Shown: one piece after another, positions 38,467-53,864 of the stretch
Layout of the letters: each line of letters starts with the position of its first letter
Numbering within the stretch: position 1 is the stretch's first letter
From: Sulfitobacter sp. EhC04
GTDB taxonomy: Bacteria; Pseudomonadota; Alphaproteobacteria; Rhodobacterales; Rhodobacteraceae
DNA length: 64,000 nucleotides
Direction: 5' to 3'
Assembly: GCF_001650875.1 (NCBI RefSeq)
Contig: NZ_LXYI01000028.1
Span: 1-64,000 of the forward strand
The notes under the pieces: generated by a model
What the model was told of the DNA's origin: nothing
Seen by the model: only the letters and a program-made list of their open reading frames with translations
The model's database searches: none
Program-made: the position numbers and the translations under genes

Positions 38467-38823
38467 ATGGAAACCTTGAGGACAGTTGTAAACGCCGCGT
38501 TTGCGACACTCTTATGTTTAGCCGTACTTCTCTGGTCTGTGGTGCCCGCAACCTCGCACGCGCCCTCAGTCTTCAGCGTCCTCCAAGAGCACGCAGAAAT
38601 GATTGCTGAGCACGGTCATTCGCATGGACTGGAAGAAGACCTTGCCTGGGCCATGCATGGACACAACCATGACAGCGTCGATCACGATCACAGTCAGGCG
38701 GTTGTGCCTGGCCCCGACCGATCGCCGCACCCGCTCGATATTTACAGAGCCGCATGGCCTTTGAGGTCGGCCACGTCGAACACCTTACAGACATACCAAA
38801 TCGAACGACCTCCGCGCGTCTGA
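38467..38823 (+). CDS. exported histidine-rich small protein
   Basis: A 118-aa protein with an N-terminal hydrophobic signal (ATLLCLAVLLWSVVPATSHA) and a His-rich middle (EHGHSHGLEEDLAWAMHGHN followed by HDHSQ). It is likely periplasmic and binds nickel/cobalt, feeding or buffering the HupE permease encoded 60 bp downstream. No catalytic family is recognised. The tandem GACGGGCA repeat ends right before the start codon, so initiation here is plausible but without a clear ribosome-binding site. Confidence 0.6.
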   Translation: METLRTVVNAAFATLLCLAVLLWSVVPATSHAPSVFSVLQEHAEMIAEHGHSHGLEEDLAWAMHGHNHDSVDHDHSQAVVPGPDRSPHPLDIYRAAWPLRSATSNTLQTYQIERPPRV

Positions 38824-40464: not shown

Positions 40465-40818
40465 ATGATCCGCGTTTTTCGCCTCATTTTGATTCTTGCA
40501 TTGAGCTTCGGTGCCGTGGTTGCGCCGGATGTATCGGCAGCGAATGCGGCTGAGGCAGCAATGGTTCAGATGGTGGGCGCCGAAAGCGCGGACGACCATT
40601 GCGGCGGATGCGATCCGATCGGATTTGCTGACGGGATATCCTGCGAGGGTGGGTGTACGGTCCCATGTGGCGCGGGAAGTTCGGCCGGTATCGTAGCTCG
40701 TACGTCAGCGATGACGCTTGAGATGGCCTTCGGTGTTGTCATCCCGGTCGCGGGACCTGTGATCCCGATTGGCGCGATTCCCTCGCTTGATCCATTCCCT
40801 CCCAAGCTGCCTGTCTGA
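40465..40818 (+). CDS. exported cysteine-rich small protein
   Basis: A 117-aa protein with an N-terminal signal (FRLILILALSFGAVVAPDVS), then a cysteine cluster DDHCGGCDPIGFADGISCEG followed by GCTVPCGAGSS and a hydrophobic tail with proline-rich motifs. It is likely periplasmic or membrane attached and binds copper. The ATG at 40465 is preferred over the TTG at 40450 because the latter lies within the promoter -10. It opens the copper-oxidase operon. Not similar to a family that can be named with confidence. Confidence 0.6.
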   Translation: MIRVFRLILILALSFGAVVAPDVSAANAAEAAMVQMVGAESADDHCGGCDPIGFADGISCEGGCTVPCGAGSSAGIVARTSAMTLEMAFGVVIPVAGPVIPIGAIPSLDPFPPKLPV

Positions 40819-40908
40819 ACCTGATAACGGCCTAGCTTATTGCGGGGCCTGACCGTTGCCTTGGCCGAAGCTGGCTGAGCGCGACCCCTTCAGATCAAGG
40901 CAGAAGTG

Positions 40909-42348
40909 ATGACCCTCAACAGACTGATTTCACGACGGCACGTGCTGCGCACCGGTGCCGCTTTCACGGCCATATCCGCTCTGTCACCGGCTCGAGTAGC
41001 GATGGCAGGTCCGACAGAGGACCCATTCTTGCTACGCGCTGCGGCCGGACAAGCCGCCCTGCGACCGGCACCCTACGGCTCTACCGACGTCTGGAGCTAC
41101 AATGGATCCCTCCCCGGCCCCGAGATCCGGGTGCGGCAGGGAGACCGAATTCGGGTTCTGGCCCGGAATGGGCTAAATGAGGGGACGACGGTCCACTGGC
41201 ATGGCATTCGCACACCCAATGCGATGGATGGTGTGCCGTTCCTAACACAGGACCCGATCCCCGTCGGTGGCGATTTTCTCTATGAATTCGATGCACTGGA
41301 TGCTGGCACGTTCTGGTATCACCCGCACCAACGCAGTTCCGAACAGGTCGGACGCGGGCTTTACGGGCCGCTGATCGTCGAGGAAGCAAACCCGATCCGC
41401 GTAGATCGCGATCTGACCTGGATGCTCGATGACTGGCGGATGACCGGCGACGGACAGATTGCGACAGATTTCGGAAGTCGGCACGACGCCGCGCACGGCG
41501 GGCGTATCGGCAATTCCGTGACCATCAACGGCCAGATACCGGACCGCATCGCCGTGCGATCCGGAGAACGCATCCGCCTGAGGTTGGTCAACGCAGCCAA
41601 TGCCCGGATATTCGGGCTGGATTTCGGGGGGCTTGCGCCGGTCGTGGTCGCTCTGGACGGTCAACCCGTGGCACCTCATGCACCAGACAGTGACGCCGTG
41701 GTGGTCGGCCCGGCCATGCGTGTCGATCTGGTGATCGACATGACCGGCAAGCCCGGAGAGAGCGTGACCGTCACCGATGTCTTCTACAGGGATCTGGAAT
41801 ACCGTCTGGTCGATCTCGCCTACGGGCCTGACAGGCTGCGGGACAGTGTGCCGGATTGGTCGATGGACCTGTCGCCCAACCCGCTGGCCGAACCGGATAT
41901 GGCGTCGGCTGCGCGGCATCAGATCGTCTTCAACGGCGGCATGATGGGGCAGATGATGATGGGCGGCGGCATGGGGTCCATGATGGAGCAGATGCGCGAA
42001 GGCAACATGTGGTTCATCAACGGCAAAGCAGCAACGGGGCACATGATGGATCCCTTGCTGGTCCTGCCGCAGGGCACGTCGCATGTGCTGCAGATGGACA
42101 ATCGCACCGCGTGGCATCACCCGATGCATTTTCATGGACATTCGTTCCGTGTGATCACACGGAACGGGCAACCGACACGGCACCGCGAATGGCAGGACAC
42201 CGTCCTGATGGCGCCCGAGGAACGGGTCGAGATCGCCTTCGTGGCGGACAATCCGGGAGACTGGATGTTCCATTGTCACATCCTGGAGCACCAGGCGGCC
42301 GGCATGATGGGCATCATACGTGTCGATCCTGGCACGACCAAAACCTGA
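40909..42348 (+). CDS. multicopper oxidase (CueO/CopA-like), Tat exported
   Basis: A 479-aa three-cupredoxin-domain oxidase, likely oxidising Cu(I) to Cu(II) in the periplasm. A Tat signal with SRRHVLRTGA (RR at 9-10) precedes domain 1. Copper ligands: HWHG (about 100), WYHPHQ (about 142), HHPMHFHGHSFRV near the C-terminus and CHILEHQAAGMMGIIRV at the end, which supplies T1/T2/T3 sites. A Met-rich stretch GGMMGQMMMGGGMGSMMEQM (about 344-363), as in CueO, binds extra Cu(I). The reading is complete; a GTG one codon before the ATG is an alternative start. Confidence 0.92.
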   Translation: MTLNRLISRRHVLRTGAAFTAISALSPARVAMAGPTEDPFLLRAAAGQAALRPAPYGSTDVWSYNGSLPGPEIRVRQGDRIRVLARNGLNEGTTVHWHGIRTPNAMDGVPFLTQDPIPVGGDFLYEFDALDAGTFWYHPHQRSSEQVGRGLYGPLIVEEANPIRVDRDLTWMLDDWRMTGDGQIATDFGSRHDAAHGGRIGNSVTINGQIPDRIAVRSGERIRLRLVNAANARIFGLDFGGLAPVVVALDGQPVAPHAPDSDAVVVGPAMRVDLVIDMTGKPGESVTVTDVFYRDLEYRLVDLAYGPDRLRDSVPDWSMDLSPNPLAEPDMASAARHQIVFNGGMMGQMMMGGGMGSMMEQMREGNMWFINGKAATGHMMDPLLVLPQGTSHVLQMDNRTAWHHPMHFHGHSFRVITRNGQPTRHREWQDTVLMAPEERVEIAFVADNPGDWMFHCHILEHQAAGMMGIIRVDPGTTKT

Positions 42349-42388: not shown

Positions 42389-42844
42389 ATGAAGAAACTA
42401 ATTGGACTTGCCAATCTTGGCACCGCAGGTGCTGCCGCTATACTTGCAATGAGCCTGAATGCCGCGCCTGCCGCAGCGCAAGAGGCCACGCTCTACAAGA
42501 ACCCGCAATGCGGATGCTGCGAGAGCTATGCGGACTACCTGCGCGAGAATGGCTTCACAGTCGAGGTGAAGCCGACCCACGATCTGGCTCAGATCAGCCG
42601 TGATGCAGGTATCCCGGACGATTTTCAGGGCTGCCATACGACCTTTCTGGAAGACTACGTCGTCAGCGGTCATGTGCCGGTCAATGTCGTCAACAAGTTG
42701 CTTGATGAGCGCCCGGACATTGTCGGCCTGACACTTCCCGGCATGCCGTTGGGATCGCCGGGTATGGGGGGTGCGAAGCAGGAACCGTTCAAGATTTACA
42801 CCGTCGAAGAAGGTGTGAACCCGACCGTCTATGCGGTCGAATGA
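42389..42844 (+). CDS. DUF411 periplasmic metal-binding protein
   Basis: A 151-aa exported protein with a signal sequence (GTAGAAAILAMSLNAAPAAA) and the DUF411 core starting LYKNPQCGCCESYADYLREN; Cys41, Cys43 and Cys44 are the likely copper ligands. Further conserved residues are FQGCHTTFLEDYVVSGHVPV. Members are recurrent in copper- and silver-resistance clusters, where a role in periplasmic copper binding is proposed but not settled. It starts 40 bp after the oxidase, with AAAGGAAAGAACC as ribosome-binding site. Confidence 0.86.
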   Translation: MKKLIGLANLGTAGAAAILAMSLNAAPAAAQEATLYKNPQCGCCESYADYLRENGFTVEVKPTHDLAQISRDAGIPDDFQGCHTTFLEDYVVSGHVPVNVVNKLLDERPDIVGLTLPGMPLGSPGMGGAKQEPFKIYTVEEGVNPTVYAVE

Positions 42845-42901
42845 TCAATTGCGCGGTCTGGTGCGATCCCGTGCCTGACCGGTTTCAAGGGAAAACAAAG
42901 G

Positions 42902-43045
42902 ATGAAGTGCATGATGATGGATGGTGGAATGATGGGTGGCGGCATGATGATCGCGATGGGACTGGTTTGGTTACTCATCGTGGCGGTGCTGGTGCTCGCG
43001 GCAATCGCCTTGGTCAAATACATCCGCTCGGACAGCGGAAAATAG
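42902..43045 (+). CDS. Met-rich small membrane protein (47 aa)
   Basis: A tiny reading frame: a Met/Gly-rich head (KCMMMDGGMMGGGMMIAMG) and one membrane helix (LVWLLIVAVLVLAAIALVKY) followed by a short basic-acidic tail. It sits between DUF411 and a cytochrome gene in the same direction. The methionine-rich head suggests Cu(I) binding at the membrane. It is below normal gene-calling length but well placed, and the start is preceded by AACAAAGG. No family is recognised. Confidence 0.55.
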   Translation: MKCMMMDGGMMGGGMMIAMGLVWLLIVAVLVLAAIALVKYIRSDSGK

Positions 43046-43057
43046 AAATGCGCCAAG

Positions 43058-43198
43058 ATGCGGAATGAGGGCGACAGCAACGGCGACGGCCTGTTGTCGA
43101 TGGGGATTGGTCTGGGGGCGTCCGTCCTGCTTGTCGTGGCATCGATAGTCGCACTCTCGTTGTATTTGGATAGCCAGAAGAAGGCACAAGCGACATGA
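43058..43198 (+). CDS. small single-helix membrane protein (46 aa)
   Basis: A 46-aa frame, RNEGDSNGDGLLSMGIGLGA then SVLLVVASIVALSLYLD, with one helix and a basic C-terminus. The stop overlaps the cytochrome ATG by four bases (ATGA), which indicates true translation and coupling. Its function is unknown; partner of the neighbouring cytochrome or of the 47-aa protein is a guess. Confidence 0.5.
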   Translation: MRNEGDSNGDGLLSMGIGLGASVLLVVASIVALSLYLDSQKKAQAT

Positions 43199-43620
43199 AA
43201 ATTACCATTAGGCTCGCAGCACTTTTGCTGGCTGCAACGGTCTTGCCCGTTTCGGCGCAGGATGACTCGCTCGCGGGCGAACGCCTTTATCAGGAGAATT
43301 GCGCCAGTTGCCATGGCGCAAACCTGGAGGGGCAGCCCGATTGGCGCTCCAGATTGCCGAACGGCCGGTTGCCTGCCCCGCCGCATGACGCCTCGGGCCA
43401 TACTTGGCACCATACGGACCGCGTGCTTTTGGACATCGTGAAGCGCGGAACGGCGGCGATTGTCGGGAATGGCTATGAAAGCGACATGCCCGGTTTCAAG
43501 GAGGTGCTGACGGATGAAGAGATCACGGCGATCATCGATTACATCAAGAGCACATGGCCCGATCGGATCCGCGCTTCGCAGGAAAGCCGTACCCTTGCGG
43601 ATGAGCAGGTGCAGCCATGA
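43195..43620 (+). CDS. c-type cytochrome
   Basis: A 141-aa exported monoheme cytochrome c. The signal (LAALLLAATVLPVSAQ) ends at residue 22; heme motif CASCH at 36-40; the axial Met is probably in MPGF (about 98). It may accept electrons in the copper/thiol redox system encoded by the same operon. It overlaps the small gene upstream and the DsbE-like gene downstream by four bases each. Confidence 0.9.
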   Translation: MKITIRLAALLLAATVLPVSAQDDSLAGERLYQENCASCHGANLEGQPDWRSRLPNGRLPAPPHDASGHTWHHTDRVLLDIVKRGTAAIVGNGYESDMPGFKEVLTDEEITAIIDYIKSTWPDRIRASQESRTLADEQVQP

Positions 43621-44213
43621 CGCAAGAGGTCGTCAGCAAAATCGACCCCGTACCGCGGCGCAGGATCTCCGGGTTTGTGCTGGTGCCGCTGATAGCTTTT
43701 GCCCTCATGGTCTTGTTCGGCTGGGGGCTTTTCAGGGGCGGCGACGACTTGCCATCGGCGCTTCTCGACAAACCTGTGCCGGAGTTTGCGCTTGCTCCGG
43801 TGCTCCGCCGCGAGGAAGGTCTTTCGACGCAGGACCTGATCGGCCATGTCTCGCTGGTGAACGTCTTTGCCTCGTGGTGTGTGCCCTGTCGGGCCGAACA
43901 CCCGCTGTTCATGGAGCTGAGCGCCACCGGTGAGGTGCCGCTCTACGGGATCAACTACAAGGACCCACCCGAGCAGGCGCGCGCCTGGCTCGACGAATTG
44001 GGCGATCCCTACGCGCGCATCGGGGCCGACATCGACGGACGTGCTGGCATCGAATGGGGCGTTTACGGCGTGCCCGAAACCTATGTCATCACGTCCGACG
44101 GCACCATTGCCTACCGCCATGTCGGCCCCATCACGCGAGCGATTCTGGAGGAAACCCTTTTGCCGATCGTCCGTGATCTGAAAACCCAAGCTGGCAAGGA
44201 GCCAACGCCATGA
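43617..44213 (+). CDS. DsbE/CcmG-like membrane thioredoxin
   Basis: A 198-aa thiol-disulfide protein with an N-terminal membrane anchor (ISGFVLVPLIAFALMVLFGW, residues 17-36) and a thioredoxin fold with active site FASWCVPCRAEHPLF. The GVYGVPETYVI cis-Pro loop is typical of CcmG/DsbE, which keeps apocytochrome cysteines reduced for heme attachment. Here it is followed by a second thioredoxin, SCO and CcdA, so it may instead transfer electrons to copper-carrying proteins. Coupled to genes at both sides by 4-bp overlaps. Confidence 0.87.
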   Translation: MTQEVVSKIDPVPRRRISGFVLVPLIAFALMVLFGWGLFRGGDDLPSALLDKPVPEFALAPVLRREEGLSTQDLIGHVSLVNVFASWCVPCRAEHPLFMELSATGEVPLYGINYKDPPEQARAWLDELGDPYARIGADIDGRAGIEWGVYGVPETYVITSDGTIAYRHVGPITRAILEETLLPIVRDLKTQAGKEPTP

Positions 44214-44722
44214 AATATCTCAAAACGGCGCTGCTCGTCTGGGCATTGTCCGTCGGCACGGCGTTTGCCGGGCCGCAAGGCTTCGCACTGCACGACACGC
44301 CGCAGCCGGTGATCAATGTGCGCTTCGAGACCGAGGACGGCAGCCGTGGGGACATGGAGGATTTTCGTGGCAAGGTGATCCTCGTGAACGTTTGGGCAAC
44401 CTGGTGCGTCCCCTGCCGGGAAGAGATGCCGACGCTGGATGCACTTCAGGCGGAACTTGGCGGCGACCGTTTCGAGGTCGTCGCCCTGTCCATCGACAGG
44501 GCCGGGTCGCCCGTCGTGCGGCGGTTCTACGACGAGATCGGTGTCAACAATCTCAAGATGTATGTCGACAAGACCATGCTGTCGATGACCGCGCTGCGCA
44601 CCGTCGGTCTGCCGACAACGATCCTGATCGACGCGCAGGGGCGGGAGCTTGGGAGACTGGTCGGCCCGGCCGAATGGGATGATCCCGAGATGGTCTCCTT
44701 CTTGCGAGGCTTTATCGAATAA
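44210..44722 (+). CDS. TlpA-like periplasmic thioredoxin
   Basis: A 170-aa exported thioredoxin: signal (ALLVWALSVGTAFAGPQG), RGKVILVNVWATWCVPCREE with the WCVPC active site, and GLPTTILIDAQGRELGRLVG as the cis-Pro loop. TlpA proteins reduce SCO and copper-site cysteines of oxidases. It is the second thioredoxin in the row and lacks the large insert of DsbE. The gap 44723-44804 holds no gene. Confidence 0.87.
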   Translation: MKYLKTALLVWALSVGTAFAGPQGFALHDTPQPVINVRFETEDGSRGDMEDFRGKVILVNVWATWCVPCREEMPTLDALQAELGGDRFEVVALSIDRAGSPVVRRFYDEIGVNNLKMYVDKTMLSMTALRTVGLPTTILIDAQGRELGRLVGPAEWDDPEMVSFLRGFIE

Positions 44723-44804
44723 GCGCCCCTGAAAGAGCGCCGCCCGCCCTTGACCGCCCAGTTATCAGAATGACCAGTACTCAAACGTCAGAAGGATTTT
44801 CCGG

Positions 44805-45095
44805 ATGACCGACATATCATCTTCCAACGATGCGGGTGCCGCCGACATCGAAAGCGCAGGCAATTGGCCCCGGTGGTTGACGCGCAGACGACTGCTGTTC
44901 GTCGGTGCGGCAACCGTTATGGGCGGCGGCATGGCGCTGAACTGGGGATGGCTCACCGCGATCGGTCTCGCGCCTGTCTTGGTTTCGCTGGCACCCTGTG
45001 CCGCGATGTGCGGGCTTGGTCTGTGCATGAAGGGCGGGTCTGGCGGGAAATGCGACGATGCGGGTGGTGGCAAGCCCCATCAATCCGAAAGGTGA
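44805..45095 (+). CDS. small membrane protein with cysteines
   Basis: A 96-aa protein with one to two hydrophobic segments (LLFVGAATVMGGGMALNWGW; LAPVLVSLAPCAAMCGLGLC) carrying four cysteines, and a Gly/Lys/Cys-rich tail. AGAAGGATTTTCCGG precedes the ATG. It overlaps the SCO start by one base (TGATG). The function is unknown; cysteines within and next to the second helix could bind copper or be redox partners of the neighbouring thioredoxins. Confidence 0.55.
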   Translation: MTDISSSNDAGAADIESAGNWPRWLTRRRLLFVGAATVMGGGMALNWGWLTAIGLAPVLVSLAPCAAMCGLGLCMKGGSGGKCDDAGGGKPHQSER

Positions 45096-45799
45096 TGCAG
45101 TTGATTGTCTATCTGACCCGGCGCGCCGCCTTGGCGACATTTGCGGCCACGATCTCCTTTCCGGCCTCCGCCGATCATCCGGGTGAAAATCTGGATGCGC
45201 GGATGTTCGAGATGGAGCCATACTTCCAGGCCATCGACGCAGCACAGGCCCCGGATTTCGAGTTGCAGGATGCGGAGGGCAATCCTGTGCGCTTGGCGGA
45301 TTTCAGCGACAAGGTCGTCATCCTGCATTTCATCTACGCCAACTGCCCGGACATCTGCCCGCTCCATGCGGAAAAGATCGCGGCGGTCCAGGCTTCGATC
45401 AACGACGGGCCGATGAGGGATCTGGTGCAATTCATCTCGATCACAACCGATCCCGTGAATGACACGCCTGACGTTCTGCGCGGGTACGGGGACCGGCATC
45501 GGTTCGATCCGACCAACTGGGTCATTCTGACCAAACGGCCTGATCAGGCTGACGACGCAACGCGCCTTCTGGCGCGGAACTACGGGCTGGAGTTCACGAT
45601 AGCGGACGACAGCGACATGATGATGCACGGTGCGGTCACCCATGTCGTGGATATCGGGGGGCGGTTTGCCGCAAAGTTCCATGGCATGGAATTCAAGAAT
45701 GTGAACCTGATCCTCTATGTCAGCGAGTTGATCAACAATGCCCAGCACCGACGCCGGGAACGCGGTTGGTGGGACCGGCTGACGGGGGCGTTTCAATGA
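45095..45799 (+). CDS. SCO1/SenC-family copper chaperone
   Basis: A 234-aa exported or anchored SCO protein. The thioredoxin-fold domain starts at APDFELQDAEGNPVRLADFS; the copper motif FIYANCPDICPLHAE holds Cys84 and Cys88, and the third ligand is the His in MMMHGAVTHVVDIGG. SCO proteins deliver copper to the CuA/CuB site of oxidases or act as thiol sensors. It starts right after the small membrane protein and ends overlapping the next gene (ATGA), with TlpA and CcdA near by to keep its cysteines reduced. Confidence 0.9.
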   Translation: MQLIVYLTRRAALATFAATISFPASADHPGENLDARMFEMEPYFQAIDAAQAPDFELQDAEGNPVRLADFSDKVVILHFIYANCPDICPLHAEKIAAVQASINDGPMRDLVQFISITTDPVNDTPDVLRGYGDRHRFDPTNWVILTKRPDQADDATRLLARNYGLEFTIADDSDMMMHGAVTHVVDIGGRFAAKFHGMEFKNVNLILYVSELINNAQHRRRERGWWDRLTGAFQ

Positions 45800-46287
45800 G
45801 TAATGCTGCGATTGGCGTCATGCAGTCCGCGCCGGATAGAATTTCCCTGACAGCACTCCGTCGATATTTTTCGGTGATCATCCCGGCTAATCTGATCTGG
45901 GAGTTCGCCCACATGCCGCTCTACACGATCTGGAACGAGGGCACCTGGGGTGAGATCGCCTTCGCCGCGGTTCATTGCACGGGTGGCGACATCCTGATTG
46001 CCATGAGCGCGCTGATGCTTGCCTTGATGCTGACCGGCCGCGGCTGGCCCTTCGTGGCGCCGACACGACGATCGGTGACCGTCCTGACAATATTGTTCGG
46101 TTTGGGATATACGCTGTTCAGTGAATGGCTCAACATCGTGATCCGCGCGGCTTGGGCCTATTCGGACCTGATGCCGATCATTCCGGTCCTCGATGCAGGG
46201 TTGTCGCCGGTACTGCAATGGATCGTAATCCCGCTGATTGCCTTCTGGTGGGCATCACGGCCCTTCAGCGGACATGGTAACGCATGA
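45796..46287 (+). CDS. four-helix membrane protein of unknown function
   Basis: A 163-aa integral membrane protein with about four helices. Polar residues sit inside hydrophobic segments: NLIWEFAHMPLYTIWN, FAAVHCTGGDILIAMSALML and LFSEWLNIVIRAAWAYSDL. These His, Cys, Asp and Glu residues in membrane contexts suggest a metal or redox site. It is coupled to SCO upstream and CcdA downstream by 4-bp overlaps, so it belongs to the copper/thiol system. No named family is recognised. Confidence 0.6.
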   Translation: MSNAAIGVMQSAPDRISLTALRRYFSVIIPANLIWEFAHMPLYTIWNEGTWGEIAFAAVHCTGGDILIAMSALMLALMLTGRGWPFVAPTRRSVTVLTILFGLGYTLFSEWLNIVIRAAWAYSDLMPIIPVLDAGLSPVLQWIVIPLIAFWWASRPFSGHGNA

Positions 46288-47024
46288 TGGATATTTCCGG
46301 CATCGGCATCGTCGCGGCGTTTCTGGCGGGAGCCATTTCGTTCCTGTCGCCCTGCGTCCTGCCGCTGGTGCCGGGCTATGTCTCCTATATTGCGGGCCAG
46401 CCGGATTTGCGCACGACACGGTCGGTCGGTCTGCGGGCACGCGCCGGGGCACTTGGGCTAAGCGCCTGTTTCGTTTTGGGATTTTCCACGGTCTTTGTCG
46501 CGTTGGGTGCCGGGGCCAGCGCGCTCGGGTCGCTGCTTCTGTCCTGGCGCACTGAGCTCAACTATCTGGGCGGGGCGATCATCATCCTGTTCGGACTGGT
46601 CATGCTGGGTGCCTTCCGTCTGGAAGCGTTCTCGCGTGACACCCGCTTCACACTCGACATTCCGGGGGGTCGCCCGCTCGGAGCCTACGTCCTGGGCTTG
46701 GCCTTCGCGTTTGGATGGACGCCGTGCATCGGACCGATCCTTGGCGCGATCCTGACACTCAGTTCGACTTCCGGCGGCATGTCGGACGGCATTTGGCTGC
46801 TGTCGATCTATTCCGCCGGGCTAGGCGTGCCGTTCCTGCTGGCCGCGCTGTTCACCGACGCCATCGCCGCGCGGGTCAGACAGATCGGCAAGGCCGGTCG
46901 CTGGCTCTACAAGGGCGCAGGCGTCGCCATGATCATCATGGGCGTTGCCATCATGACCGGCCAATTGTCCCGGTTTGCCTACTGGCTTCTGGGAACCTTC
47001 CCATTCCTGGCTTCAATCGGTTAA
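46284..47024 (+). CDS. ccdA: CcdA-type cytochrome c biogenesis/thiol transporter
   Basis: A 246-aa DsbD-β/CcdA membrane protein with six helices. It carries electrons from cytosolic thioredoxin to periplasmic thioredoxins. Hallmarks: FLAGAISFLSPCVLPLVPGY (first Cys/Pro segment) and FAFGWTPCIGPILGAIL (second cysteine). The partners are the DsbE-, TlpA- and SCO-like proteins directly upstream. The end overlaps the converging permease gene by four bases (47021-47024), so transcripts meet there. Confidence 0.91.
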   Translation: MMDISGIGIVAAFLAGAISFLSPCVLPLVPGYVSYIAGQPDLRTTRSVGLRARAGALGLSACFVLGFSTVFVALGAGASALGSLLLSWRTELNYLGGAIIILFGLVMLGAFRLEAFSRDTRFTLDIPGGRPLGAYVLGLAFAFGWTPCIGPILGAILTLSSTSGGMSDGIWLLSIYSAGLGVPFLLAALFTDAIAARVRQIGKAGRWLYKGAGVAMIIMGVAIMTGQLSRFAYWLLGTFPFLASIG

Positions 47025-48130
47025 TTTTCCTTGGCGTTTCTGAGGTGAAGCCAGATCAGTATTGCCCCGATGACGAGAAATATCAGGTTGAGGAAGAACG
47101 TGTAGTCGATGCTGAACCGGACCATTTCCTGAAGCGAGGGCCGCTCGGTCGGGATCATCCCTACGAGAGCAAACAGGTAATGCACCGTAATTCCCGCAGC
47201 GACCATGCACAGGTACAGCAAGCCTGAAAGATAGAGCGCATACTGCCAGCCATAATACTTTGCGTGCACCCATATCACCGTGGCAGCAACAAGATCGGCT
47301 CCGAGAAAGGCGATCACGCCTCCGAACGACGCATCACGCGACCAGAGCATCGCGGCCAGGGGGACATTGCCCATCGACCCGATGAAGGTGAAGAAAGCGA
47401 CGACCGGTGCCACCAGCGCGTTTTCGAGAACGATCAGGAAGCCCGGCGCGTCCTGCGCACCGCCATCTGCGACCAGGAAGATCGCGTTCCAGAAGCTCTG
47501 CGGCACAAAGACGGAAATGAATCCCGCGACCGTGAAGCCGAAGAGGATCTCCTTCCAGACCATCTTCCATTCCATGAAGAAAACGCGGGCGATCCGGTCC
47601 CATCCTTCGCGGGACAGCAGTTTGTCGCGGAACGATCCCTTCATGGTCTGGTCGGTGTCCATACCTTCGTCGGACTGGGCCTTCTCCGCATGCTCTTTTT
47701 CGCTTTCGACAAACGACCTTGGAAGCCACATCAGGGAGAGGGCATAGGCGTAGATCGTCATCAGGATGCCAAGCAGGAAATTCGCCACCATGAATTTCCA
47801 GCCCAGCAGGACCAGAAGGACGATTCCAAGCTCGATCACCAGATTTGTCGATGAAATCAGGAAGGCGATCGAATTGACCGGATGCGCACCTTTCACGAGG
47901 ATCGAACGCGACGCGGCAAGAGCCGCGAAGGAACAGGACGACGACACGAAACCAAAGGAGCCGGCAATGCTTGGCTTCCTGGCACCACGATCACCCAGAA
48001 CACGCGCCATCTGATCCCGTGTCACGAAGATTTGGATGCCTGCGGAGATGATATAGCCGAAGATCAGCGCCCAGAGCGCCTTCCAGAGCATGCCCGCCCC
48101 GGTCGTGAATGCTTCGACTATCTGGTCCAT
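47021..48130 (-). CDS. permease of the ArsP/DUF318 group
   Basis: A 369-aa membrane protein of the PF03773 permease family, with two halves of about four helices each joined by a charged cytoplasmic loop (residues about 130-190). The conserved motif FGFVSSSCSFAALAASRSIL is in the first half, and FFTFIGSMGNVPLAAMLWS in the second. Known relatives extrude organoarsenicals (ArsP) or other thiol-reactive compounds; the substrate here may be copper-linked or a thiophilic metal. It converges on ccdA and is preceded by the glutaredoxin-MauE gene in the same direction. Confidence 0.83.
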   Translation of the reverse strand: MDQIVEAFTTGAGMLWKALWALIFGYIISAGIQIFVTRDQMARVLGDRGARKPSIAGSFGFVSSSCSFAALAASRSILVKGAHPVNSIAFLISSTNLVIELGIVLLVLLGWKFMVANFLLGILMTIYAYALSLMWLPRSFVESEKEHAEKAQSDEGMDTDQTMKGSFRDKLLSREGWDRIARVFFMEWKMVWKEILFGFTVAGFISVFVPQSFWNAIFLVADGGAQDAPGFLIVLENALVAPVVAFFTFIGSMGNVPLAAMLWSRDASFGGVIAFLGADLVAATVIWVHAKYYGWQYALYLSGLLYLCMVAAGITVHYLFALVGMIPTERPSLQEMVRFSIDYTFFLNLIFLVIGAILIWLHLRNAKEN

Positions 48131-48216
48131 TCAGCTTGACCTTTTTCGCAGTGCTGTCTGACCTGCGCACCTGTCGGGAGAACGGGTCTGAGGGATGTGA
48201 AAAAGGCACCCGCCTT

Positions 48217-48942
48217 TCAGCCGATCAGATAGACCCTGATCGGCATCCAAATCCCCATGACCATCATCATCAGGTTCTCCGTGAGCGAGACAAAGCCAAG
48301 CGGCACATTGCTGTCACCGCCGACACAGGCGCATTTCAATTCACGCTTGTCGATATAGACCGCCTTGAAAACCGATACTGCGCCAACAGTGCCGATGAAC
48401 AGGGCCACCGGTGCCGAAAGCCAGGTCAGCGCCCCGGCGACCATGAGGATGCCTGCGAACGCCTCTCCGAACGGATAGATCTTGCCATATCGCACCCACC
48501 GACGCGCCAGCAGGTCGTAGTTCAGGAACATGGTCGAAAAGCTTTCGACATCCTGAAGTTTTTGTACGGCCAGAAAGCACATCGAGATGGAAATGAACCA
48601 TTCCAGGGCGCGCAGGGTAATAATGGTCTCGAAGCTGTACCACGACAAACCGAGCGCCATCAGGAACGCGACGGCAAAGATCGCAATCACCGGCTGATAG
48701 GATGTGTCCGAGCGTTCGTCTTCGGGCGCATCCATGCCGAAATGGACCCGAAGGTCGTCATATCCGCCGATCCGCTCGTCGCCGATCCAGGTTTGCGGGG
48801 TGGTTTCGACGCCGTGCTCTTCCATGAACGCGTCGGTTTCCTCACGCGTGGTCAAAGGGTGATCCTTGACTTCGAAACCCTTGCGCTCCAGCAGGTCCTT
48901 GGATTTGAGCCCATAGGGACAGAGGTGGTCGGGCATCACCAT
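48217..48942 (-). CDS. glutaredoxin domain fused to a MauE/DoxX-like membrane domain
   Basis: A 241-aa fusion. The N-terminal glutaredoxin fold has the redox segment MPDHLCPYGLKSKDLL (a single active-site Cys) and the cis-Pro loop HGVETTPQTWIGDERIGGYDD; from about residue 80 four helices follow (PVIAIFAVAFLMALGLSWYS onward) ending in LKCACVGGDSNVPLGFVSLT, a MauE-like cysteine motif. It may relay thiol electrons across or along the membrane. An upstream CTG at 48981 with a good GGAGGA site would add 13 residues and give the usual KLYRM start of the glutaredoxin fold, so the true start may be that unusual codon. Confidence 0.75.
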   Translation of the reverse strand: MVMPDHLCPYGLKSKDLLERKGFEVKDHPLTTREETDAFMEEHGVETTPQTWIGDERIGGYDDLRVHFGMDAPEDERSDTSYQPVIAIFAVAFLMALGLSWYSFETIITLRALEWFISISMCFLAVQKLQDVESFSTMFLNYDLLARRWVRYGKIYPFGEAFAGILMVAGALTWLSAPVALFIGTVGAVSVFKAVYIDKRELKCACVGGDSNVPLGFVSLTENLMMMVMGIWMPIRVYLIG

Positions 48943-53447: not shown

Positions 53448-53864
53448 ATGAGCTTTCGAGTTTTCATATCAAGCTGGTCAAGGGCGTTTACGTGCATTGC
53501 GTTTGCGCTGGCATTGGTATTGTCACCACCTTCTGCCGCTCACGCGGCGTCCGGCATGCATGACGGACATCAAGCCAAGTCTATTGTTGTCGTTGGTGCC
53601 GCCATGACTCATGACACCGGAAGCGATGCGCATCACGCGCATGAGAAGCTTAGGGTCGCAAGCGACATCGCAGCGTCCGACAAGGATGGCAAAGAGCAAC
53701 AATCCCAAGAGTGTTGCAACGGTATCTGTATTTCTGTCGTCTTCCTCGAAGACACCAAGATCGAAGCAGAGCCGGTTGGTACAAGTGAATATGTCATTCT
53801 CGACGGTCAAACGTATTCGGTGGAAACAGCAGGGTTCCTGCGGCCCCCTCGATTCCTGATCTGA
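53448..53864 (+). CDS. exported His/Cys-containing protein
   Basis: A 138-aa protein with a signal (CIAFALALVLSPPSAAHAAS) and a His-rich part (GMHDGHQAKS; DAHHAHEKLRV), then ECCNGICIS in the C-terminal third. It may bind copper in the periplasm and resembles small proteins seen in front of TolC/oxidase copper operons. No defined family. The gap 53276-53447 holds only the weak dyad. Confidence 0.6.
   Translation: MSFRVFISSWSRAFTCIAFALALVLSPPSAAHAASGMHDGHQAKSIVVVGAAMTHDTGSDAHHAHEKLRVASDIAASDKDGKEQQSQECCNGICISVVFLEDTKIEAEPVGTSEYVILDGQTYSVETAGFLRPPRFLI

Follow-up and report, generated by a model that had tools for sequence, protein, structure and literature searches.

A conserved gene set on marine bacterial plasmids that looks like an electron supply for copper-handling proteins outside the cell membrane

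Introduction

Periplasmic thiols are oxidised and occupied by copper. What, then, is the purpose of a row of closely packed genes in Sulfitobacter sp. EhC04 that combines copper-related proteins with carriers of thiol electrons? The row lies in a stretch of 64,000 bases (the window; bases 1-64000 of an 86,152-base contig, in a genome of 4.85 Mb that is 99.9% complete) and includes a DUF411 protein, a cytochrome c, two thioredoxin-like proteins, a SCO-family protein and CcdA. The analysis described here suggests an answer: the gene set is conserved on marine bacterial plasmids and looks like a dedicated electron supply for copper-handling proteins outside the cell membrane. In our reading, the row forms the distal portion of a cutFOG-like operon for copper detoxification that is mobile and brings its own thiol-reducing genes; we give this reading a probability of approximately 0.48.

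Results

Open reading frame (ORF) and profile analysis assigns ten genes, all on the + strand, which fill positions 42389-47024 of the window:

42389-42844, +: DUF411 protein (CopG/CutG family) with CGCC; PF04214 77.8 bits, cut-off 27; PDB 6wis, E 4.7e-20
42902-43045, +: 47-residue Met-rich single-helix membrane peptide; present in 29 of the 30 full units defined below
43058-43198, +: 46-residue single-helix membrane peptide; profile matches in close relatives only
43195-43620, +: cytochrome c with one CASCH site; PF00034; in 27 of the 30 units
43617-44213, +: DsbE/CcmG-type thioredoxin-like protein (WCVPC, YGVPETY); TIGR00385 167 bits, cut-off 123.15; CycY (PDB 1kng), E 2.1e-40
44210-44722, +: TlpA-like thioredoxin (WCVPC, VGLPTTI); TlpA (PDB 1jfu), E 1.6e-33; NF047696 164.1 bits, below the cut-off of 230
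44805-45095, +: CysMP, a 96-residue membrane protein with PCxxMCGLGLC; 157 relatives at E<=0.001
45092 (GTG) or 45095 (ATG) to 45799, +: SCO-family protein with CPDIC and the His of MMHGAVTHV; PF02630 72 bits, cut-off 22.8
45796-46287, +: 4TM, a 163-residue membrane protein with no match among the families searched; 1502 relatives at E<=0.001
46284-47024, +: CcdA, 246 residues; PF02683 68 bits, cut-off 27.1

Overlaps of 1-4 bp occur at 6 of the 9 junctions, in agreement with a preliminary description of this DNA as a row of ten genes with mostly overlapping ends. The other three junctions are gaps of 57 bp (DUF411 to the 47-residue peptide), 12 bp (between the 47- and 46-residue peptides) and 82 bp (TlpA to CysMP). 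The DsbD_TM profile covers CcdA along almost its full length, with no other domain.

The DNA of the row is 100% identical to a stretch of a Pseudosulfitobacter pseudonitzschiae plasmid (NZ_CP054602) and, among the matches listed, approximately 85-93% identical on Sulfitobacter and Roseovarius plasmids. Matches are present in 300 of 72,556 plasmid records, 43 of which contain at least 80% of the row in one place. A TlpA query gave 571 confirmed loci, of which 80 were kept (loci are numbered with L). In all 18 loci whose TlpA reaches 76% identity or more (L007-L024), DUF411, cytochrome c, DsbE and CcdA are encoded too; the multicopper oxidase that precedes the row in the window is absent from L022 and L024, and in L024 the unit is divided in two. 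Among the other 62 loci, L025 has DsbE and CysMP, and none of the remaining 61 (L026-L086) has a DUF411, CysMP, 4TM or CcdA match at E<=1e-3.

A search with 4TM found matches in 26 out of 390 genomes from the order and in 21 out of 385 from the class; both counts include the host. We fetched 45 loci via 4TM, leaving aside the window itself, two places at contig ends (genomes G064 and G073) and a second place in G587; since these loci were found through 4TM, the unit counts depend on it. A full unit, defined as TlpA, DUF411 and 4TM with either CcdA or SCO within 9 kb, is present in 30 of the 45 loci, and 11 of the 30 come from eight families besides that of the host. The genes are therefore not scattered in relatives, and the earlier proposal of a conserved unit linked to copper genes is borne out by these neighbourhoods. 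The remaining 15 loci comprise three partial units (L170, L194, and L195) and 12 that have 4TM without the unit. In a phylum-wide search with a 4TM profile, in which at most nine candidates were scored per genome, five of 398 genomes matched: the host, one already known, two of other classes that match distantly (E 2e-21 and 8e-15) and a fifth with E 6e-4.

TlpA and DUF411 are by definition present in all 30 units, and DUF411 retains CxCC in each. The counts of the other parts are: Met-rich peptide 29, CysMP 28, cytochrome c 27, multicopper oxidase 26, and DsbE 21. Some SCO is found in 29 units and one of the row's own type in 28, L173 having only one from another cluster and L179 none; CcdA is detected in 29 and intact in 25. 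Gene order is exactly that of the window in 20 units, and the other ten deviate by swaps or a displaced part. L163-L172 are close copies of the window. In the non-redundant full-core set of 11 loci, the distances of seven products correlate pairwise with r of 0.39-0.93 (the CcdA distances include broken copies). A chance row and scattered genes were both rejected as explanations, given that the unit recurs in 30 of 45 loci with its order kept across families.

The operon very probably begins upstream of DUF411, where three features were overlooked by the preliminary description, which had the ten genes right and the start of the row too late:

40465-40818, +: CutF-like leader ORF of 118 residues with a hydrophobic N-terminus, CGGC and SCEGGC, and the C-terminal PSLDPFPPKLPV
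40807-40903, +: predicted RNA stem, in which 40807-40819 (the leader end) pairs with 40889-40903, containing the Shine-Dalgarno site of the multicopper oxidase
40906-42348, +: multicopper oxidase (CutO/CueO type) with a twin-arginine-like start; PF07732, PF07731, PF00394

The oxidase stops 40 bp upstream of DUF411. In Rhodobacter capsulatus, according to passages of PMC8456105 and PMC9973294, CutF is exported by Sec, carries CxxxC and ends in a proline-rich stretch; it controls CutO translation via a stem over the ribosome-binding site, and CutG, the third product of cutFOG, is homologous to CopG. The head formed here by leader, multicopper oxidase and DUF411 resembles cutFOG, with the parts in the same order. 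Taken with the predicted stem, it makes the row a cutFOG-like operon with an extension of seven genes, those for cytochrome c, DsbE, TlpA, CysMP, SCO, 4TM, and CcdA.

At loci with an oxidase at least 45% identical, an ORF counted as a leader if it had two paired cysteines (CxxC or CxxxC) and an end that contains PP. Of the 48 loci, which include the window and its close copies, 44 have such an ORF upstream of the oxidase, and the four that fail all have a cut upstream stretch: L016 and L107 start within the oxidase, and in L106 and L176 the upstream ORF reaches the edge. As a control, the same scoring finds a leader at 83 out of 5520 random positions and at 0 of the 12 other gene starts tried in the window. 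The leader has no Pfam match and no DUF2946 match at E<=0.1. We therefore call it CutF-like by its features only and rejected an assignment to DUF2946, as the CutF family is termed in the passages of PMC9973294. The stem is modestly supported: a consensus fold of 13 sequences recovers much of it, with 91.6% of cells pairing and two pairs altered on both sides, and shuffles give two such pairs in 43 of 500 cases. The fold z-score is -2.46 for 40785-40912 and only -1.36 for the longer 40740-40925, and other folds are preferred in L013, L017 and partly L173, in which the Shine-Dalgarno site is mostly open.

As to the oxidase itself, the annotation of NZ_CP054602 places its start at the equivalent of 41029, which removes the twin-arginine-like N-terminus ISRRHVL. 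The window holds two further candidates for CutF-like leaders on the + strand, neither of which matches Pfam. The one at 38467-38823 is a His-rich ORF that ends in ERPPRV, 60 nt upstream of HupE/UreJ (z -1.42); the other, at 53448-53864, has ECCNGIC and ends in LRPPRFLI, and here the prediction again has the ORF end pairing with sequence ahead of the next start, without significance (z -1.03).

Which of the row's proteins could exchange electrons? The nearest solved structure to the row's TlpA is Bradyrhizobium TlpA (1jfu, then 4txo), with the score for the TlpA equivalog NF047696 staying below the cut-off given above. The SCO protein has the features of SCO1/SenC, namely PF02630, CxxxC and a distal His that aligns with PDB 4hde; from this alignment and general knowledge of SCO proteins we take the distal His to be a copper ligand. 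Bradyrhizobium TlpA reduces ScoI and subunit II according to passages of PMC6696091 and PMC9145763, and the latter describes CcdA as moving electrons outward from cytoplasmic thioredoxin. A path from CcdA via TlpA to SCO can soundly be drawn, because the row's TlpA is closest to that reported ScoI reductant. TlpA and SCO would be the likeliest working pair of the row.

A group of 12 rows, which we call B-type (plasmids of Roseovarius indicus, Tritonibacter mobilis and Phaeobacter sp. G2, and relatives; L194 without a recognisable TlpA), sheds additional light on SCO. These rows carry an added canonical SCO, together with a beta-propeller protein in 11 of 12, PCuAC in 9 and DsbA in 5. In all 12, the row's own SCO has lost the His at the copper-ligand position and its cysteines have become CGxPC (CGAPSC in L194), while the added SCO retains CPD[IV]C and the His. 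All 20 single-SCO rows that we sampled (11 + 9) retain this His; they were chosen by us and include some close copies, one partial unit (L195) and four loci with a further SCO outside the row (L088 and L183-L185). The B-type SCOs form one clade (support 0.994), so that the split was one event. This pattern suggests that the row needs a copper-competent SCO and that the altered B-type copy may retain a thiol-only role.

The second thioredoxin, DsbE, passes the TIGR00385 cut-off and has CycY (1kng) as its closest solved relative. In the cytochrome c, CASCH is conserved in 27 of 27 sequences and the Met-ligand pattern MPxF in 19. DsbE is an accessory, since the 9 of 30 units without it all retain cytochrome c and TlpA. 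CcdA is broken by frame changes in L187, L188 (beside an IS3-like transposase ORF), L189 and L192, and is a fragment in L173, all five being units without DsbE. An earlier proposal that CcdA feeds both thioredoxins and SCO is partly supported: the path through TlpA to SCO is soundly reasoned, and neither DsbE nor an intact CcdA is present throughout the units. Elsewhere in the host genome lie another CcmG-type match (C9:328490-328987, 352 bp from a Cytochrom_C_asm match), two further DsbD_TM genes and five further SCO genes. The CcmG-type, CcdA and SCO copies of the row are therefore extra ones.

Searches of Pfam and NCBIfam gave no match for CysMP or 4TM at E<=0.001. CysMP residues C65, M68, C69, and C74 are invariant in 38 aligned sequences, and its predicted structure is poor (predicted local distance difference test (pLDDT) score 58, predicted template modelling score 0.26). 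In 4TM, W35, E36, H60, C61, and D65 are invariant in 48 sequences, with H60 and C61 almost invariant once distant sequences are added; the predicted model of four long helices is confident (pLDDT 84), and a fold search matched no convincing solved structure. In 12 loci 4TM occurs in the absence of the unit, next to a CopA-type ATPase in several of them, so that 4TM is a broader copper-linked family that may have a separate copper role. Distant homologs without the unit and with a CopA-type ATPase match in the fetched stretch are those of L102, L103, L190, L197, L200, L201, and L204, among them one on a Chroococcidiopsis plasmid.

Discussion

Gene content, order, conservation and motif retention were established directly, and from these we infer each step in which electrons or copper pass between proteins. 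If the parallel with R. capsulatus holds, the CutF-like leader would sense copper and open the stem over the oxidase start, and the multicopper oxidase and DUF411 would oxidise or bind periplasmic Cu(I). CcdA would deliver electrons from cytoplasmic thioredoxin to TlpA, which might draw on the host CcdA where the row's copy is broken. TlpA in turn would keep the copper-binding thiols of SCO reduced, and perhaps also those of DUF411 and CysMP, and so counter their oxidation by copper. In units that have DsbE, this protein would do the same for the cysteines that bind heme in the cytochrome c of the operon; probable partners for copper or thiols on the membrane side are the Met-rich peptide, CysMP and 4TM.

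Several observations weigh against this scheme. L020-L022 and L179 have TlpA without SCO, and L022 has lost CysMP and 4TM as well. The SCO split is a single event in a single clade. CcdA is broken or a fragment in five of the nine units without DsbE (four of the five loci are related to each other), compared to none, judged by profile score, of the 21 with DsbE, a pattern that links CcdA to DsbE no less than to TlpA and lowers our confidence in the CcdA step.

This last pattern would suit a back-up for cytochrome c maturation. In that case, CcdA and DsbE would hold apo-cytochrome c in the reduced state once copper interferes with the host pathway, and TlpA and SCO would be secondary. CcdA is intact in 21 of 21 units with DsbE and in only 4 of 9 without it, DsbE is of true CcmG type and its gene overlaps that of the cytochrome c; moreover, R. 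capsulatus cutO and cutF mutants under copper lost CcoO and CcoP, according to a passage of PMC8456105. However, cytochrome c persists without DsbE in 9 of 30 units, L174, L191, and L199 have DsbE and CcdA while cytochrome c was not found, and Pfam and NCBIfam reveal no other Ccm gene in the row, for which reason we also rejected a second ccm operon. We consider such a back-up unlikely.

The relay could also serve copper supply and not defence, with SCO, TlpA and their partners loading a respiratory oxidase or the multicopper oxidase under changing copper. Bradyrhizobium TlpA and SCO function in CuA assembly (as passages of PMC6696091 have it), PCuAC is added in 9 of 12 B-type rows and Cox11 is present in the Jiella row. 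Yet there is no oxidase subunit among the annotated genes of the rows inspected, and the row comes after a detoxification-type oxidase and is located in metal-resistance islands, which makes supply distinctly improbable. Finally, the row may be a travelling cluster of unrelated metal-stress genes with no joint function, as the loss of single parts in L020-L024 and L173 and the division of L024 would allow; an order conserved across families, and the correlated distances of the seven products in the 11 non-redundant loci (r 0.39-0.93), leave very little room for this.

How does the extended cutFOG-like operon compare to known systems? It shares with cutFOG of R. capsulatus a CutF-like leader, a predicted stem over the oxidase start, a multicopper oxidase and DUF411/CutG, in the same order; whereas three genes are described there in the passages cited, six larger genes for thiols and copper and two tiny membrane peptides are added here. 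Its DUF411 shares CxCC and PGMPxGSPGM with CopG of Pseudomonas aeruginosa (PDB 6wis and 6wje), and we saw no difference in sequence from it. As in the Bradyrhizobium TlpA-ScoI relay (passages of PMC6696091), a TlpA-like reductant adjoins a copper-site SCO, but here both lie beside a multicopper oxidase in metal islands with no oxidase gene in the row, and TlpA falls below the NF047696 cut-off. Scs (suppressor of copper sensitivity; passages of PMC8900818) likewise links a transmembrane thiol reductant and thioredoxin-like proteins to copper tolerance. The row's CcdA, however, consists of DsbD_TM only compared to the three-domain ScsB, and the window's row has no ScsC-like protein. We rejected membership, as there is no three-domain ScsB and no DsbA/DsbC-like gene among the ten; by analogy, the row would work like Scs without being a member of it. 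With its CcdA and its DsbE of CcmG type next to the gene for cytochrome c, the row recalls the CcdA-CcmG branch of cytochrome c maturation, but it has no other Ccm gene and the host CcmG lies elsewhere in the genome.

The preliminary description held that the unit had not been described. This seems to hold for the extended unit, of which we found no description in an open-access library, and less so for its head, which resembles the studied cutFOG operon. For a roseobacter under copper, PMC6308992 reports multicopper oxidases, CopA and CopB, and its passages do not mention DUF411, CcdA or a thioredoxin.

If the operon has its own electron supply, thiol repair becomes part of alphaproteobacterial copper defence, SCO and TlpA gain a role outside oxidase assembly, and the CysMP and 4TM families are placed in a pathway that can be tested by deletion. 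A more far-reaching version, which we put forward tentatively and with more doubt than belief, is a copper-dedicated periplasmic reduction pathway of Alphaproteobacteria, attached to a cutFOG-like operon and spread by plasmids. In it, CcdA and TlpA would re-reduce a detoxification-specific SCO, and CysMP and 4TM would be new families for copper or thiol transfer. In one clade the SCO would have diverged into two proteins, one carrying copper and the other, which lacks the His, acting only through its thiols.

Surrounding DNA

Downstream of the row, on the - strand at 47021-48942, lie an ArsP-type permease, which converges on CcdA with a 4-bp overlap of the stops, and a glutaredoxin-MauE fusion. 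The permease is not found behind CcdA in other builds of the unit, e.g., L088. On the same contig outside the window, positions 75604-80042 hold a second DUF411 and two canonical SCO genes in a separate cluster like those of L104 and L113.

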